Of a stretch of DNA of 64,000 nt, positions 5,737 through 12,806 are shown piece by piece. Position 1 is the first letter of the stretch. Each line of letters begins with the position of its first letter. The position numbers were made by a program, and so were the translations under genes. The notes beneath the pieces are model-generated. The model was not told the origin of the DNA. It did no database searches and saw only the letters and a program-made list of their open reading frames with translations. The DNA is taken from positions 3,906,001 through 3,970,000 of the forward strand of contig NZ_JACBZM010000001.1 in assembly GCF_013408525.1 (NCBI RefSeq), written 5' to 3'. Source of the DNA: Nocardioides aromaticivorans (GTDB taxonomy: Bacteria > Actinomycetota > Actinomycetes > Propionibacteriales > Nocardioidaceae).

Positions 5737-6911
5737 ACCGCACGACCACCGAGGTCGCCATCGTCGGCGCCGGCCCCGCCGGCCTGATGCTCGCGCACCT
5801 GCTCCAGCGGGCCGGGATCGACTCGGTCGCGATCGACATCCGCACCCGCGAGGAGATCGAGAACACCCACCGCGCCGGGATCCTGGAGCAGGACAGCGTC
5901 CGGCTGCTCGTCGATTCGGGCGTCTCCGACCGCGTGCACCGCGACGGCTACCGCCACGACGGGATCGAGCTCGCCTTCGGCGGCGCCGGGCACCGGATCG
6001 ACTTCCAGGGACTGGTGGGCGCGAGCACCCAGCTCTACCCGCAGACCGACGTCTTCATCGACCTCGCCGACGCCCGGGTCAGGGACGGGGGAGACGTCCG
6101 CTTCGGCGTACGCGACGTCTCGGTCGCCGACCTCACCACCGACCGCCCGGTGATGAGGTTCACCGATGCGGAGGGCGTCGCGCACGAGGTCGCGGCGAAG
6201 GTCCTCGTCGGCTCGGACGGCTCGCGCAGCATCTGCCGCCATGAGTTCCCGGAGGCGCTGCGCCGGCAGTTCTTCCGCGAGTACCCCTTCGCCTGGTTCG
6301 GCATCCTCTGCGAGGCCCCGCCCAGCAGCGAGGAGCTGATCTACAGCCACTCCGACCGCGGGTTCGCGCTGATCAGCCAGCGCACCGAGTCGCTGCAGCG
6401 GATGTACTTCCAGTGCGACCCCCGCGAGGACGTCGCCGACTGGTCCGACGACCGGATCTGGGAGGAGCTGCAGTCCCGCGTCGGCGCGAACGGCTACGTG
6501 CTCAAGGAGGGCGCGATCACCTCGAGGACGGTGCTGCCCTTCCGCAGCTTCGTCCAGGAGCCGCTGCGCCACGGCAACCTCGTGCTCGCCGGCGACGCCG
6601 CGCACACCGTCCCGCCGACCGGCGCCAAGGGCCTCAACCTGGCGCTCGCCGACGTCCGGGTGCTGGCCGAGGAGCTCGAGCGCCACCTGCGCTCCGGCGC
6701 CGCGGACGCGCTGGACTCCTACGCCGAGCGGGCGCTGCAGCGGGTGTGGCGGGCCCAGCACTTCTCGTACTGGATGACCACGCTGCTGCACCGCCTGCCC
6801 GACGCCAGCGACTTCGACGTACGACGCCAGGTCGGCGAGCTCACGTCGATCGTCTCGTCCACGGCCGGCTCGACGTACCTCGCGGAGGGCTACACCGGCT
6901 GGCCGTCCTGA
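5733..6911 (+). CDS. pobA: 4-hydroxybenzoate 3-monooxygenase
   Basis: 392 residues, almost exactly the PobA length. FAD dinucleotide fold GAGPAG at residues 12-17, the second FAD motif GDAAHTVPPTGAKGLNLAL, and the NTHRAGILEQ and YPQTDVFIDL regions typical of PobA are visible. It hydroxylates 4-hydroxybenzoate to protocatechuate, feeding the upstream pca enzymes. GTG 5733 overlaps the pcaC stop. As the last gene of the operon it puts both the entry step and ring cleavage under one promoter; pcaIJ and pcaF for the final steps are not in this window. Confidence 0.95.
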   Translation: MNRTTTEVAIVGAGPAGLMLAHLLQRAGIDSVAIDIRTREEIENTHRAGILEQDSVRLLVDSGVSDRVHRDGYRHDGIELAFGGAGHRIDFQGLVGASTQLYPQTDVFIDLADARVRDGGDVRFGVRDVSVADLTTDRPVMRFTDAEGVAHEVAAKVLVGSDGSRSICRHEFPEALRRQFFREYPFAWFGILCEAPPSSEELIYSHSDRGFALISQRTESLQRMYFQCDPREDVADWSDDRIWEELQSRVGANGYVLKEGAITSRTVLPFRSFVQEPLRHGNLVLAGDAAHTVPPTGAKGLNLALADVRVLAEELERHLRSGAADALDSYAERALQRVWRAQHFSYWMTTLLHRLPDASDFDVRRQVGELTSIVSSTAGSTYLAEGYTGWPS

Positions 6912-7120
6912 CGTCGGGACGGGAACGCGCAGCCTGCGGGCACCCCGAGCCGTCGCAGCACGACCGCCGCCGGGCAGAAGCCGGTGAGACTCGACTGGAG
7001 GAGGTTCACGCCGACGAAGGCCGTCAGCAGCAGCCACCACGGGGAGACCAGGGCGGCGAGCGCCGCGCTGAGCAGCACCAGCGAGCCCGCGAGCGCGAGC
7101 ACCAAGCGGTCGACGTTCAT
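6890..7120 (-). CDS. DUF2892 (YgaP transmembrane-like) small membrane protein
   Basis: 76 residues beginning MNVDRLVLALAG, with two hydrophobic helices (about 4-24 and 28-46) and the SLTGFCPAAVVLRRLGV motif. This is the DUF2892 membrane domain that is fused to rhodanese in E. coli YgaP; the conserved Cys of the GFCP motif is present. ATG 7120 overlaps the stop of the upstream 46-residue gene (ATGA), which decides the start. The 3' end runs 22 bases into the convergent pobA. Probably last gene of the MMPL-AhpD unit; a link to sulfur-carrying chemistry is inference. Confidence 0.8.
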   Translation of the reverse strand: MNVDRLVLALAGSLVLLSAALAALVSPWWLLLTAFVGVNLLQSSLTGFCPAAVVLRRLGVPAGCAFPSRRQDGQPV

Positions 7121-7257
7121 CGCCACCACCGCTTCGGCTTCTCGTGGCCCGGGCACCACTGGTCCGCGGGCACCTGTGCCCTGACCGAGGCGATGTGCTG
7201 GCCGCATCCGGCCCAGGTCGTCTTGCTGCAGATCCTGCAGCGCACGGGACGGCACAT
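7117..7257 (-). CDS. 46-residue Cys-rich protein
   Basis: Short frame MCRPVRCRICSKTTWAGCGQ, then VPADQWCPGHEKPKRWW. Five Cys (positions 2, 7, 10, 18, 35) and two His; C7-x2-C10 followed later by C18 and C35-x2-H38 suggests a small zinc ribbon. It starts three bases after the AhpD-like gene stop and its TGA overlaps the DUF2892 ATG, so it is well placed in the operon despite its size. I recall very similar short proteins in other actinobacteria but cannot name a function. Confidence 0.75.
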   Translation of the reverse strand: MCRPVRCRICSKTTWAGCGQHIASVRAQVPADQWCPGHEKPKRWWR

Positions 7258-7260
7258 GGC

Positions 7261-7638
7261 TCAGGCCTCCTCGGTCTCGGCCAGCGCGTCGGCGAAGGAG
7301 CAGAAGGCGTCGTACGCACGGGCGCCGTGGATGGTCGCGGGTCCGCCGTGCATCAGGAAGGTGACGCCGATGGCCTCGGCGGCCTCCTGCTTGGTCGCAC
7401 CCGCGCGGGCCGCTGCCTGCGCGTGGGAGGCGATGCAGCCGTCGCAGCCCTCGACGACGCCGATGGCGAGGGCGATCAGCTCCTTGGTGCGCTTGTCGAG
7501 GGCGCCGTCGGCGAAGGCCGCATGGGAGAGTGCGCCGAAGCCGGAGTAGACGTCGGGGATGGCCCGGCGCAGCTGGCGGTGCAGGGGCGAGAGCTCGTCG
7601 AGCAGTGGCTTGCCGTGGGGCGAGGTGTGGTCGGTCAT
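7261..7638 (-). CDS. Carboxymuconolactone decarboxylase/AhpD-like family protein
   Basis: 125 residues with the AhpD-type redox motif C65-x2-C68-x3-H72 in EGCDGCIASHAQAAARAGAT, and the DKRTKELIALAIGVVEGC helix. Proteins of this type with CxxC are thiol peroxidases or disulfide reductants, not ring-lactone decarboxylases, so despite the nearby pcaC it probably is not part of aromatic breakdown. It lies 31 bases after the MMPL gene and 3 bases before the 46-residue gene on the same strand. Confidence 0.88.
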   Translation of the reverse strand: MTDHTSPHGKPLLDELSPLHRQLRRAIPDVYSGFGALSHAAFADGALDKRTKELIALAIGVVEGCDGCIASHAQAAARAGATKQEAAEAIGVTFLMHGGPATIHGARAYDAFCSFADALAETEEA

Positions 7639-7669
7639 GTCGGGTTTCCTCTCGGGTGCGTGGTGCGGT

Positions 7670-9826
7670 TCAGTCGTGGGCGAAGGTGATGGCGGGCAGG
7701 ATCCGGCGCAGCCACACCGGCGTCGCCCAGGCGGCGCGGCCGGAGACGCGCAGCAGGACGGGCAGCAGGACCAGGCGGACGAGGAAGGCGTCGAGCAGGA
7801 CGGCGACCCCGAGGATCACGCCCATCTCCTTGGGAGGCAGTGGGCCGGACAGGGCGAAGGTGAAGAACACCGCGACCATGACGCCGCCGGCGGCGAAGAT
7901 CACCCGGCCGGAGTGGGCCACGGCGCCGACCATGGCCTCGCGCGGGTCGCCCGACTTCTCCCAGTGCTCCTTCGCCGAGGCGAGCAGGAAGACCGTGTAG
8001 TCCATCGCGATGGCGAAGATCATCGCGAAGAAGAACACCGGCGCCCAGGCGTCGAGGAAGCCCTGTGACTCGAAGCCGAGCAGGCCCGCGCCGTGGCCCT
8101 CCTGGAAGACCAGGCGGGCGACACCGAAGGCGGCGGCGGTGGACAGCAGGCTCGCGAGCGTGCCGAGCAGGGAGATCAACGGTGCCTGCAGGGCGACGAG
8201 CAGCAGCAGGAAGCCGAGGAGCAGGACCACGCCGATGACCACCGGCGTCGAGCGGTGCAGTTGGTCGGTGAGGTCGATGTTCTCGACGGCGGCGCCGCCG
8301 ACCAGCGCCGAGTCGGGGAGCTCGGCCCGGAGCCGGTCGACCGTGTCCGGGAGCGCCGGGTCGGAGGGGTCCACCGTCGGCATCGCCTGGACGAGCACCC
8401 GGTCGGTGCCGTCGGTGGCCGGCATGGCGGGCAGCACGGCGGCGATGCCCGGGTCCGCGGCCAGGGCGGCGCTCGTGGCGTCGGCGTCGATACCGTCCGC
8501 GACGACCTGCAGCATGCCGGGCGCGCCCGGTCCGAAGGCGTCCTTGACCTGCTCGTAGCCGAGCCGGGCACTGGCGTCCTCGGGCAGCACCTTGATCGAG
8601 GGCATGCCCGTCTTCAGGCCGAGGACGGGAGCGGCCAGGACCAGGAGCACCAGGGTGGAGCCGATGCCCCACACCGCCGGCCGCCGCCACAGGTGCTCAC
8701 CCCACCGGGCGAACACGGGGGAGCGGTGCTCGCCCACCTTCACCCACGGCAGGGCCAGCCGGTTGATCCGCCCGTCGAGCTTGAACAGCACCAGCGGCAG
8801 CAGGGTGAGCGTCGCGGCCAGCACGAAGACGACCGAGATCATGATGCCGCCGGCCATCGAGCGGAACGACGGCGAGGGCACGAGCATCACGGCGGACAGT
8901 GACACCAGCACGGTGGCGCCGGACAGCAGGACCGCCTTGCCGGCCGTGTCCATGGTCTCGGCGATCGCCTGGCGTGGCGAGCCGTGCTGGCCGAGCCGGG
9001 CCGCCCGGTAGCGGACGACGAGGAAGAGTGCATAGTCGATGCCGAGTGCCAGGGCGAACATCATCGCGAAGTTCATCGCCCAGATGGAGACGGGCACGAC
9101 CTCGTTGATGAGGACCAGCGAGCCGGCGGAGGCCACCAGCCCGGCCAGGGTCAGCAGCAGCGGAAGCCCGGCTGCGACGAGGGCGCCGAAGGCGAGCACG
9201 AGGATCGCCAGGGTGACCGGCCAGGAGAACATCTCCGAGGTCAGCATCGCGTCGAGGTTCGCCTCGTTGAAGTCGGACCACAGCAGCGACGAGCCGGTGG
9301 GATTGACCTCGACGCCGCCGGTCGAGAGGCCCTGGAGCTCCTCCTTCAGGTCGGTGGCGACCCGGACCATCTCGTTGGTGTCGACGCCCGCACCCGCGAG
9401 CACGACGGCGGTGCGGCCGTCGGGGGAGAGGCTGGCGCCGGGCACGGGGGCGATGACCTCGGCCAGGCGCGGCTCGTCCTCGAGGATGCGCGTCACCTCG
9501 GCCACGACCCGGGCGCCGGTGCCGGACTCGAGCGATCCGTCGGTCGCGTGCACGACGACCTGGATCGCGTGGCTGGCGTCGCCGCCGAAGTGCTCCTGCG
9601 CGAGGTCGCGCACGGTCACGGACTCCGAGCCGTCGGCCTGCCAGCCGGCGCCGGAGAGGCTCTTCTCCACGGACGGGGCGAAGACGCCCAGCCCGATCAC
9701 GATCGCGATCCAGACGAGGCCGACGCCTCCCCGGTGCTCGGTCACCCAGACCCCGAGCCGCCCGAGGGGGCCGGGCCGCCAGGTGTGCGAGGCCGCCTCC
9801 GGTGCGGCCGATGTCGTCTGCGCCAC
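7670..9826 (-). CDS. MMPL family transporter (RND superfamily)
   Basis: 718 residues. Two repeated halves, each with one long periplasmic-side loop after the first membrane helix and a five-helix bundle; the proton-relay region DYALFLVVRYR (first half) and DYTVFLLASAKE (second half) is clear. Such proteins export lipids or hydrophobic compounds in actinobacteria. GTG 9826 is chosen because AAGGAGG lies 7 bases upstream and the C6G6 palindromes lie just beyond; the frame continues further upstream but through the divergent DUF302 gene. Divergent from DUF302/CsoR, so probably controlled by that repressor. Confidence 0.9.
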   Translation of the reverse strand: MAQTTSAAPEAASHTWRPGPLGRLGVWVTEHRGGVGLVWIAIVIGLGVFAPSVEKSLSGAGWQADGSESVTVRDLAQEHFGGDASHAIQVVVHATDGSLESGTGARVVAEVTRILEDEPRLAEVIAPVPGASLSPDGRTAVVLAGAGVDTNEMVRVATDLKEELQGLSTGGVEVNPTGSSLLWSDFNEANLDAMLTSEMFSWPVTLAILVLAFGALVAAGLPLLLTLAGLVASAGSLVLINEVVPVSIWAMNFAMMFALALGIDYALFLVVRYRAARLGQHGSPRQAIAETMDTAGKAVLLSGATVLVSLSAVMLVPSPSFRSMAGGIMISVVFVLAATLTLLPLVLFKLDGRINRLALPWVKVGEHRSPVFARWGEHLWRRPAVWGIGSTLVLLVLAAPVLGLKTGMPSIKVLPEDASARLGYEQVKDAFGPGAPGMLQVVADGIDADATSAALAADPGIAAVLPAMPATDGTDRVLVQAMPTVDPSDPALPDTVDRLRAELPDSALVGGAAVENIDLTDQLHRSTPVVIGVVLLLGFLLLLVALQAPLISLLGTLASLLSTAAAFGVARLVFQEGHGAGLLGFESQGFLDAWAPVFFFAMIFAIAMDYTVFLLASAKEHWEKSGDPREAMVGAVAHSGRVIFAAGGVMVAVFFTFALSGPLPPKEMGVILGVAVLLDAFLVRLVLLPVLLRVSGRAAWATPVWLRRILPAITFAHD

Positions 9827-9847
9827 GGTGGCGCCTCCTTTCGAGTT

Positions 9848-9898
9848 ATCCCCCCGGGGGGTTAGGATCAGGACAGTAGCAGATCCCCCCGGGGGGAT
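9848..9898. promoter_or_regulatory. Twin C6G6 palindromes, candidate CsoR/CstR-family operators
   Basis: Two copies of CCCCCCGGGGGG flanked by A/T: 9850-9861 (AT before, TTA after) and 9885-9896. The second is a perfect 16-bp palindrome ATCCCCCCGGGGGGAT (9883-9898). Centres are 35 bp apart. G/C-tract palindromes with AT flanks are the known operator type of CsoR-family repressors, and a member of that family is encoded 450 bases away. The pair lies between the divergent starts at 9826 and 9921, so one protein could control both units. Confidence 0.75.
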
Positions 9899-9920
9899 AG
9901 TGAATCGACAGGAGAACCCG

Positions 9921-10349
9921 ATGGACAGCACCGACTTCACGCTGGGAGCCACCCTCGATGCGTCGTACGACGAGACGGTGGCGCGCGTGCGCGCCCTGCT
10001 CGCCGACGCCGGCTTCGGCGTCCTGACGGAGATCGACATCCGCGCCACGCTCCAGGCCAAGCTCGGCGTGGAGGTGCCCGCACAGCTGATCCTCGGCGCC
10101 TGCCGGCCCGAGCTGGCCCACCGTGCCCTGCAGGTCGAGCCGCGCGTGGCGGCGCTGATGCCGTGCAATGTCGTCGTCGCCGACGCAGGGGAGGGGCGCA
10201 CCCGCGTCGATGTCATGGACCCTGCGCTGATCGCCTCACTGGCGCCGGACCCCCGGCTCGCCGAGGTGGCCGCCGAGGGTCGTGCCCGGCTGACCGGGAT
10301 GATGGAGGCACTGACCGCGACTGCAGCACCTGACGGGAGCAACCGATGA
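9921..10349 (+). CDS. DUF302 domain protein
   Basis: 142 residues. The DUF302 core runs from DASYDETVARVRALLADAGFGVLTEIDI to the LGACRPELAHRAL and LMPCNVVV strands; Cys residues occur in both of the last motifs. Function of the family is not established; members often sit near sulfur or metal stress genes. ATG 9921 follows AGGAGA. Its stop overlaps the ATG of the CsoR-family gene, so the two are co-translated from the operator region. Confidence 0.85.
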   Translation: MDSTDFTLGATLDASYDETVARVRALLADAGFGVLTEIDIRATLQAKLGVEVPAQLILGACRPELAHRALQVEPRVAALMPCNVVVADAGEGRTRVDVMDPALIASLAPDPRLAEVAAEGRARLTGMMEALTATAAPDGSNR

Positions 10350-10606
10350 AGCTGGAGCCTGAGGAGATCAAGGCGATCATCACCCGCCTCAAGCGGGCCA
10401 ACGGCCACCTGGCGTCGGTGATCCGGATGCTCGAGGAGGGCGCGGAGTGCGAGGACGCGCTGATGCAGCTCGCCGCCGTCAACAAGGCGGTCGGGCGCGG
10501 CGGCTACGCGCTGGTCGCCACCGGCCTGCAGAAGTGCCTGGTCGAGGGCGGCCCGGACAGCGTCGACGCGAAGAAGATGGAGAAGCTCTTCCTCGCGCTG
10601 GCCTGA
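10346..10606 (+). CDS. CsoR-family repressor of CstR-like (persulfide sensor) type
   Basis: 86-residue all-helical DUF156 protein. Alignment to the Cu(I) sensor CsoR (ligands C36, H61, C65) gives C35 and C64 here, but position 60 is Gly in ATGLQKC where CsoR has His. Absence of the His with both Cys kept is the pattern of CstR, which senses persulfides by forming Cys-Cys links instead of binding copper. The tail also lacks the long C-terminal extension of mycobacterial CsoR. Likely represses itself, DUF302 and the divergent MMPL unit through the C6G6 sites. Confidence 0.85.
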   Translation: MKLEPEEIKAIITRLKRANGHLASVIRMLEEGAECEDALMQLAAVNKAVGRGGYALVATGLQKCLVEGGPDSVDAKKMEKLFLALA

Positions 10607-10614
10607 TCTTCGCC

Positions 10615-10673
10615 GTTCACCTACCGAATTCGTCGTGGATCAGGCGATCTCACGACAATTTCGGTAGGTGAAC
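10615..10673. repeat. Long imperfect inverted repeat between convergent genes, possible bidirectional terminator
   Basis: Arms 10615-10637 and 10651-10673 (23 bases each, starting GTTCACCTACCGAA and ending TTCGGTAGGTGAAC) pair with three mismatches around a 13-base loop. It sits between the CsoR-family gene (ends 10606, plus) and the alpha/beta hydrolase gene (ends 10687, minus). Position suits a shared terminator, but the arms are longer than needed and there is no T tract, so a mobile palindromic repeat is also possible. Confidence 0.6.
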
Positions 10674-10686
10674 CGCACCACCCGGG

Positions 10687-12704: not shown

Positions 12705-12806
12705 GTGACGGTCGCTGCGCGACCTCCTCGACCACCGGGTCACGGTCGCTGCGCGACCTCCTCGACCACCGGGTGACGGTCGCTGCGCGACCTCCTCGAC
12801 CACCGG
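12705..12806. repeat. Three tandem 34-bp units of a dispersed hairpin repeat
   Basis: Three near-identical 34-bp units begin at 12705, 12739 and 12773. Each carries the hairpin GGTCGC-TGC-GCGACC followed by TCCTCGACCACCGG; units differ mainly at one base (GTGACGG or GTCACGG). A single diverged copy lies at 20226-20259. The array is between the photolyase start (12667) and the CrtI-like stop (12816), both minus strand. Likely a dispersed non-coding repeat family. Confidence 0.85.

Follow-up and report, generated by a model that had tools for sequence, protein, structure and literature searches.

The window analysed here, a stretch of 64,000 nucleotides from the Nocardioides aromaticivorans genome (contig NZ_JACBZM010000001.1, positions 3,906,001 to 3,970,000; positions below count from its first base), carries two divergent operons under a predicted common repressor of the CsoR family. 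One operon encodes a DUF302 protein and the repressor itself; the other encodes an MMPL-family transporter, an AhpD-like protein, a 46-residue cysteine protein (p46) and a YgaP-like transmembrane (TM) domain protein. We propose, with a probability of roughly 0.82 for this regulatory statement, that the operons form a self-contained response locus for sulfane sulfur (persulfide or polysulfide) of the kind known for the repressors CstR and ScCsoR. The locus is a real and conserved sulfur-type regulon, and the window belongs to a variant of it that has an AhpD-like CxxC protein and no dioxygenase. We favour sulfane sulfur because many relatives carry a persulfide dioxygenase (PDO)-like MBL-rhodanese, a rhodanese, a TauE/SafE exporter or a thioredoxin in the same operons.

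The repressor lacks the copper ligand

The repressor gene (10346..10606, forward strand) matches PF02583 at E 2.3e-18, with 66.8 bits against a cut-off of 22.8. Its product carries C35 and C64, the counterparts of ScCsoR Cys37 and Cys66, and Gly60 in place of the conserved His, as a preliminary description of this DNA had already read; the Cys-His-Cys Cu(I) site, whose His stands four residues before the second Cys, is absent. Relatives were sought in 96 genomes, of which a single genus supplied 59, the window's own among them, and the same order the other 37; the search gave 82 repressor matches: the window and 81 others, of which 80 neighbourhoods were fetched (60, then 20; G090 was left out). 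The window and the first 60 make up the 61 loci referred to below. In an alignment of 59 sequences from these loci, that of the window among them (the gene caller did not find the repressors of L045 and L088), C35 and C64 are present in 59/59 and position 60 is Gly in 58, Ser in one and His in none. Both cysteines likewise occur in all 48 repressors found near p46 in named actinobacterial genomes (four of them mutually identical), with Gly at position 60 in 26, Ala in 19, Ser in two, Thr in one and, again, His in none. No homologue in either set keeps the His, so that the CstR-like pattern, as opposed to that of a copper sensor, recognised in the preliminary description extends to both.

When a profile of 21 repressor sequences was compared with solved structures, the best matches were 7mq3 (E 7.9e-15) and 7mq1 (1.1e-14), closely followed by 6ahx (2.7e-14), with the copper CsoRs 4m1p and 2hh7 ranking below the first two. 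We take 7mq1–7mq3 to be E. faecalis CstR (their PDB label reads csoR). In the alignments, 7mq1 has Asn at the His site, where 6ahx, 4m1p and 2hh7 all have His.

A copper sensor was rejected on account of the missing His together with a second CsoR in the same genome, which has the His and adjoins a copZ-like gene. FrmR, RcnR and InrS draw their ligands from N-terminal and His residues (FrmR Pro2; His60/61), and an FrmR-type formaldehyde sensor was rejected because of Gly at residue 60 and Lys, not Pro, at residue 2; the repressor scores 38.1 bits against the NCBIfam model for FrmR (cut-off 133) and 21.3 against that for RcnR (cut-off 138). A zinc alcohol dehydrogenase lies near the repressor in six loci and is not a core partner. 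The idea that the protein senses copper or another metal after all, in the manner of CsoR, RcnR or InrS and through a relocated ligand, merits almost no credence. The Pfam family name and the annotation do say metal-sensitive repressor, fold and G/C-tract operators are common to CsoR-family metal sensors, and Tsukamurella plasmid 27 carries, a few kb away, a P-type ATPase accompanied by an ArsR-type regulator of its own; but the His ligand is missing throughout both sets of relatives, the His-containing CsoR with copZ sits elsewhere in the genome, and the partners conserved in at least four of the 61 loci include no transport gene for copper, nickel or cobalt and no copZ. The window module itself contains no copper exporter either, which agrees with the preliminary description, and no copZ. 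The repressor probably senses reactive sulfur rather than copper, judging from its residues and its neighbours, and the locus cautions against the automatic label ‘metal-sensitive regulator’.

The 20 loci fetched later comprised six with two-Cys repressors, six without a readable match (L106, L111–L115) and eight with members of a Cys-less CsoR-family subfamily (8-kb stretches L101, L103, L105, L107–L110 and L116), in which position 35 is Leu or Val, position 60 is Asp or Glu and Cys64 is missing.

Tandem operators and their two classes

The two operons point away from each other from start codons at 9826 and 9921, and both predicted operators lie in between. Operator 2, ATCCCCCCGGGGGGAT (9883..9898), is a perfect palindrome, and operator 1, ATCCCCCCGGGGGGTT (9848..9863), has one mismatch to the perfect palindrome; the twin C6G6 palindromes of the preliminary description are thus in place. 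They lie 35 bp apart from start to start, and the pair's outer edges leave 21 and 22 bp to the start codons on either side. The chance expectation for such a palindrome in the window is 0.03, and two occurred in 0/100 shuffles. Strict and relaxed patterns, with no mismatches allowed, matched nothing in the 5,257,158-base genome besides this pair, and a reversed-pattern control returned none. With a scoring matrix of our own, drawn up once these sites and the published ScCsoR consensus were known to us, at least one site scoring ≥24 was found in 55/61 loci and a tandem pair, 27–37 bp apart, in 42/61, against 0 sites in 831,625 bp of background; at a laxer cut (score 19), stray single matches appeared elsewhere in the loci. 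Relatives have the pair in the same position, so it is not a product of chance.

Operators fall into two classes, ATACCCC and A(T/A)CCCCC, and the class follows residue 21 of the repressor. Once 10 of 109 rows without an operator class were omitted, leaving 99 loci, Gln21 went with ATACCCC in 52/52 and His21 with A(T/A)CCCCC in 47/47, the operator base concerned being base 3 (A or C); the window belongs to the His21 subclass. The same rule holds in 14/14 two-Cys loci outside the discovery set (three His, 11 Gln). Residue 13 tracks the operator class almost as well, and the class shifts once on the repressor tree, which makes the covariation of residue 21 and operator a single evolutionary event. 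Three of the eight Cys-less paralogs have weak TAACCCC-type sites nearby together with Gln21, so the rule does not extend to them. Residue 21 is a candidate operator-specificity switch for CsoR-family repressors.

Gene neighbourhoods in relatives

Comparison across actinobacteria, which the preliminary description had called for, revealed a conserved neighbourhood. Two of the refuting conditions named there, a retained His and the lack of such a neighbourhood, were checked and did not hold. Clustered gene calls in the 61 loci gave as partners DUF302 (31), MMPL (30), an MBL-rhodanese of ~463 aa (25), p46 (23), TauE/SafE (20), rhodanese (18), the AhpD-like (CMD) protein (15), YgaP-TM (10) and thioredoxin (9). 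These calls came from our own script rather than a standard program; it missed the DUF302 and p46 genes of the window, which were recovered by tblastn. In the fullest arrangement, YgaP-TM, p46, MMPL, TauE, PDO and rhodanese lie on one strand, with (thioredoxin), DUF302 and csoR diverging from them.

The DUF302 gene (9921..10349, forward strand; PF03625, E 3e-21) starts at 9921 as the first gene of the repressor operon and shares an ATGA overlap with csoR. Its LGAC and PCNV cysteines are retained in 36/36 copies, window included. Leading the divergent operon, the MMPL-family RND transporter (7670..9826, reverse strand; 718 aa; PF03176, E 4.9e-63) has a GTG start preceded by AGGAGG, a strong ribosome site. 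The operon ends with the 76-aa YgaP-like TM protein (YgaP-like_TM/DUF2892; 6890..7120, reverse strand; PF11127, E 3.1e-11), whose gene overlaps that of p46 by four bases (ATGA) and whose two Cys motifs are retained in 13/13 copies of >50% identity. All genes named in the preliminary description are in the positions it gave; its interval of 7117..10606 leaves that of DUF2892 almost wholly outside.

The module extends beyond the order of the window. In Tsukamurella, csoR-DUF302 lies opposite CMD-p46 on plasmid 23, and on plasmid 27 it lies opposite MMPL-DUF2892-DsbA together with an oxidoreductase; MMPL is found in both Tsukamurella and Rhodococcus plasmid modules. On the Rhodococcus plasmid a pair of sites, each with one end base changed, lies between DUF2892 (46% identical) and MMPL (63%), 2.4 kb from csoR, so that each of the two genes seems to belong to the regulon by itself. 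Two Streptomyces plasmid loci hold a similar set, csoR with rhodanese, TauE and MBL, and the sites as well. The placement of operons and operators suggests that the response includes MMPL and the YgaP-like membrane domain.

Exchange of the dioxygenase for an AhpD-like protein

The AhpD-like protein of the window (7261..7638, reverse strand; PF02627, E 1.1e-22; TIGR00778) carries the motif E-x11-C-x2-C-x3-H, which is kept in 15/15 copies, window included. Its closest solved relative is 5dik, annotated AhpD (E 1.7e-23). With the AhpD/CMD family it shares the motif and the AhpD core domain TIGR00778; unlike AhpD, it sits with a persulfide-type repressor, and it falls far below the TIGR00777 cut-off for AhpD (21 against 192 bits).

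Among the best 65 of the 82 repressor matches, a PDO lies within 8 kb in 27 loci, a CMD protein in 15, both in none and neither in 23 (Fisher p 1.5e-4, too small a value, related genomes being treated as independent). Around p46, the best 80 of at least 543 matches, from named genomes, gave PDO in 17, AhpD-like in 14, both in none and neither in 49 (Fisher p 0.033, too small for the same reason); some of these stretches are cut by contig ends, so that a neighbour not seen there may still exist. The repressor tree contains a clade of 21 rows, 19 of them CMD and two neither, and a nearby clade of 22, with 17 PDO and five neither (supports 84 and 93). The window sits within the CMD clade. Across 86 residues its repressor does not differ from that of Nocardioides sp. 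SLBN-35 (L191), and the path length on the tree to that of Pimelobacter simplex 3E (L121) is 0. No PDO, rhodanese or TauE gene is present in the window locus. In the whole genome, no PDO-rhodanese was found at E 1e-40 and no TauE relative in a search run without a positive control; nine rhodanese-domain matches lie elsewhere. Through the exchange of a PDO for an AhpD-like protein under one repressor, the large AhpD/CMD family acquires a definite chemistry that can be tested.

Could the cysteine pair serve a broader purpose? C35/C64 would then form a general dithiol redox or electrophile sensor that answers quinones, HOCl, nitroxyl or disulfide stress; defence against peroxide or disulfide would fall to the AhpD-like protein and thioredoxins, and the sulfur genes of relatives would make up only one arm of the response. 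It is true that the AhpD-like protein and thioredoxin are generic thiol-redox proteins, and 23 of the 65 loci have neither PDO nor CMD. We nevertheless regard this explanation as unlikely: in relatives, PDO-rhodanese, rhodanese and the TauE sulfite exporter sit in the same operons with the same operators, and, according to PMC9918477, a reporter for the CstR homologue YrkD of B. licheniformis is induced by elemental sulfur and polysulfide and not by NaHS, GSSG or H2O2.

It is very unlikely, in our estimation, that the locus was re-purposed after PDO, rhodanese and TauE were lost, leaving the repressor to control an MMPL exporter of a toxic lipid or antibiotic in answer to a ligand that is no longer sulfur. 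MMPL proteins usually export lipids or drugs, the MMPL gene leads the divergent operon, and the window module has no proven sulfur enzyme. Against this, an MMPL 75–81% identical occurs with the same operators within PDO-containing operons, C35/C64 are invariant within the CMD branch too, and p46 and DUF302 are common to the PDO and CMD branches.

p46, a small cysteine protein family

The p46 gene (7117..7257, reverse strand) encodes a 46-aa Cys/His protein for which Pfam and NCBIfam offered no credible family. M1, C2, C7, C10, W15, G17, C18, G19, H21, P30 and C35 are invariant in 26 aligned members, and since the motif MC-x4-C-x2-C-x4-W-x-GCG-x-H is kept in 43/44 copies, window included, the open reading frame (ORF) is a real gene. 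In the 61 loci, tblastn gave 44 copies, against the 23 from gene calling counted above. The 96 genomes hold 76 copies in 63 genomes, of which 44 lie within 8 kb of the repressor, nine further near a PDO and one more near a weaker repressor match. Among 296 genomes sampled evenly across the phylum, 39 copies were found in 36 genomes, 18 of them (16 genomes) within 8 kb of a CsoR-like gene; with 18/39 so placed, a chance ORF was rejected. The link between p46 and the repressor is strong and not universal.

Of the 80 named loci, 26 have an operator in the 160 bp before p46, and nine of these have no repressor in the fetched stretch; the background was 5 sites in 652,553 bp, and shuffling of the upstream windows gave 0/1600. 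A further 31 have a repressor and no near site, often since p46 is internal to an operon, as it is in the window, where it does not directly follow an operator; the remaining 23 have neither. Because an operator stands upstream in 26/80 against 0/1600 shuffled windows, p46 itself very likely belongs to the regulon, and not just through its neighbours. It represents a small cysteine protein family, often beside the repressor, that is not in Pfam or NCBIfam and counts at least 543 relatives in a single genome collection.

A predicted model of p46 (46 aa, mean pLDDT 81, pTM 0.48) shows a small hairpin and a helix. A fold search with this model returned 19 rows, none below E 2.6, and the top five are zinc-finger or CW domains; a zinc site in p46 would be a guess from the model.

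In the clade of the window p46 finishes with KPKRWWR, without the (L/F)xRLFGR-like tail that most relatives have, and in L121 and L191 it has a GTG start. Loci L145, L146, L150 and L151, from a Microbacterium plasmid, Thermocrispum, Cellulosimicrobium and Microlunatus, have identical repressors, with p46 and operator in the same places, which reflects recent transfer or contamination.

Comparison with described systems

Among the closest described circuits is that of ScCsoR in S. coelicolor (sco0620 region). As reported in PMC7533328, ScCsoR represses PDO, rhodanese and TauE genes; polysulfide persulfidates its Cys37 and frees the repressor, both Cys being required; and its operator, ATACCn6GGTAT, stands in two copies before Scpdo. 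The predicted circuit of the window shares with it a two-Cys CsoR-family repressor, self-regulation, palindromic operators and control of neighbouring operons. It differs in its operators (ATCCCCCCGGGGGGAT against ATACCn6GGTAT) and in its genes: the window lacks PDO, rhodanese and TauE, which its relatives retain in the module, and has MMPL, AhpD-like, p46, YgaP-TM and DUF302. Three Streptomyces plasmid homologues (not ScCsoR itself) have Gly60 and Gln21, against His21 in the window.

The persulfide sensor CstR of the S. aureus and E. faecalis cst operons is likewise a two-Cys CsoR-family protein, without the His in the 7mq1 chain; it has other partner genes, and similarity is low (31 bits in a single-sequence search). 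The two models also differ in chemistry, with Cys-Cys polysulfide bridges described for CstR and a Cys37 persulfide for ScCsoR. E. faecalis CstR controls a CoA-persulfide reductase (CoAPR) that yields H2S, according to PMC9405070, and the term persulfide dioxygenase does not occur in the main text of that paper.

Also close are the SUL modules on plasmids of Antarctic Arthrobacter (pA40H2 and others; L099), which PMC6305408 describes as a CsoR regulator, a small hypothetical protein, a sulfur dioxygenase, two rhodaneses, TauE, an MFS carrier and DUF302. We found p46 beside csoR there (60% over 35 residues), which presumably corresponds to the small hypothetical protein of that paper, and CsoR and DUF302 are shared with the window. 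The dioxygenase, two rhodaneses, TauE and MFS set the SUL module apart, as does its Gln21/ATACCC operator class, and no MMPL or AhpD-like match was found in the 14 kb read of it. The composition, which the preliminary description did not know as described, is therefore only partly new: the core circuit with DUF302 is already known (PMC6305408), and the additions are the AhpD-like variant, the p46 family, the membership of MMPL and YgaP-TM and the covariation of residue 21. No paper describing the MMPL/AhpD/46-aa combination was found in our searches of open-licence papers.

Proposed response and its weight

By analogy with these systems, the reduced repressor would sit on both tandem operators and silence both operons, its own included. 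Persulfide formation on C35, with C64 required, would release it, as in ScCsoR and CstR, and turn on DUF302-csoR and MMPL-AhpD-like-p46-YgaP-TM. The AhpD-like dithiol protein may then reduce low-molecular-weight persulfides or disulfides, in analogy to the Enterococcus CoA-persulfide reductase, rather than oxidise them to sulfite. We put forward this reductive part, disposal by thiol chemistry through the AhpD-like protein, only tentatively, and would sooner bet against it than for it. With their invariant cysteines, p46 and DUF302 might handle or relay sulfur or a metal, and MMPL and the YgaP-like membrane domain might transport a thiol or lipid modified by sulfur through the membrane.

The reading of the preliminary description, a reactive-sulfur module, draws support from the repressor residues, from PDO, rhodanese and TauE in relatives, from the Streptomyces circuit and from the separate His-containing CsoR beside copZ. 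Several observations weigh against a sulfane-sulfur response. The window lacks any enzyme of proven sulfur chemistry, and the literature examined gave no demonstrated persulfide activity for AhpD, DUF302 or MMPL proteins; for MMPL and sulfane sulfur together, no relevant publication was found, judged by title and the start of the abstract. A single-sequence search places the His-containing CsoR-type chain 6ahx first, and not CstR, so sequence similarity alone did not place the repressor with CstR. Six of the 61 loci have no operator at a score of ≥24, and the 23 of 65 loci with neither PDO nor CMD count here as well. As for the exchange, its significance is overstated in the way noted above, the PDO/CMD label changes about five times on a weakly resolved repressor tree (loci with neither omitted), and seven of the 15 CMD-type genomes carry a PDO-like gene elsewhere, so the swap may be local.

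A bolder joint reading, which we offer as speculation with the odds somewhat against it, would have one repressor serving two interchangeable kits on a core of DUF302, p46, MMPL and the YgaP-like domain: an oxidative kit of PDO, rhodanese and TauE, with sulfite exported, and a reductive or thiol-exchange kit built on the AhpD-like protein. Here p46 would be a carrier or buffer of sulfane sulfur (or of displaced zinc), MMPL the first exporter of its family tied to sulfane sulfur, and residue 21 would pick the operator. If this is true, p46 would be the founding member of a previously unrecognised small Cys/His family.

Other features of the locus

A promoter scan gave no sigma-70-like site, and a terminator scan gave one terminator-like match, inside the MMPL gene. 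Between the convergent csoR and alpha/beta-hydrolase genes, a repeat search found a 26-nt inverted repeat, 88% complementary (10612..10676), which the terminator scan did not pick up and which is a possible two-way terminator; one half-site resembling it lies elsewhere in the genome, at C1:1761161. Farther along, between the photolyase gene and the next gene (12705–12806), a 34-nt unit stands three times in tandem, and several stretches matching this repeat also occur in Nocardioides L191.

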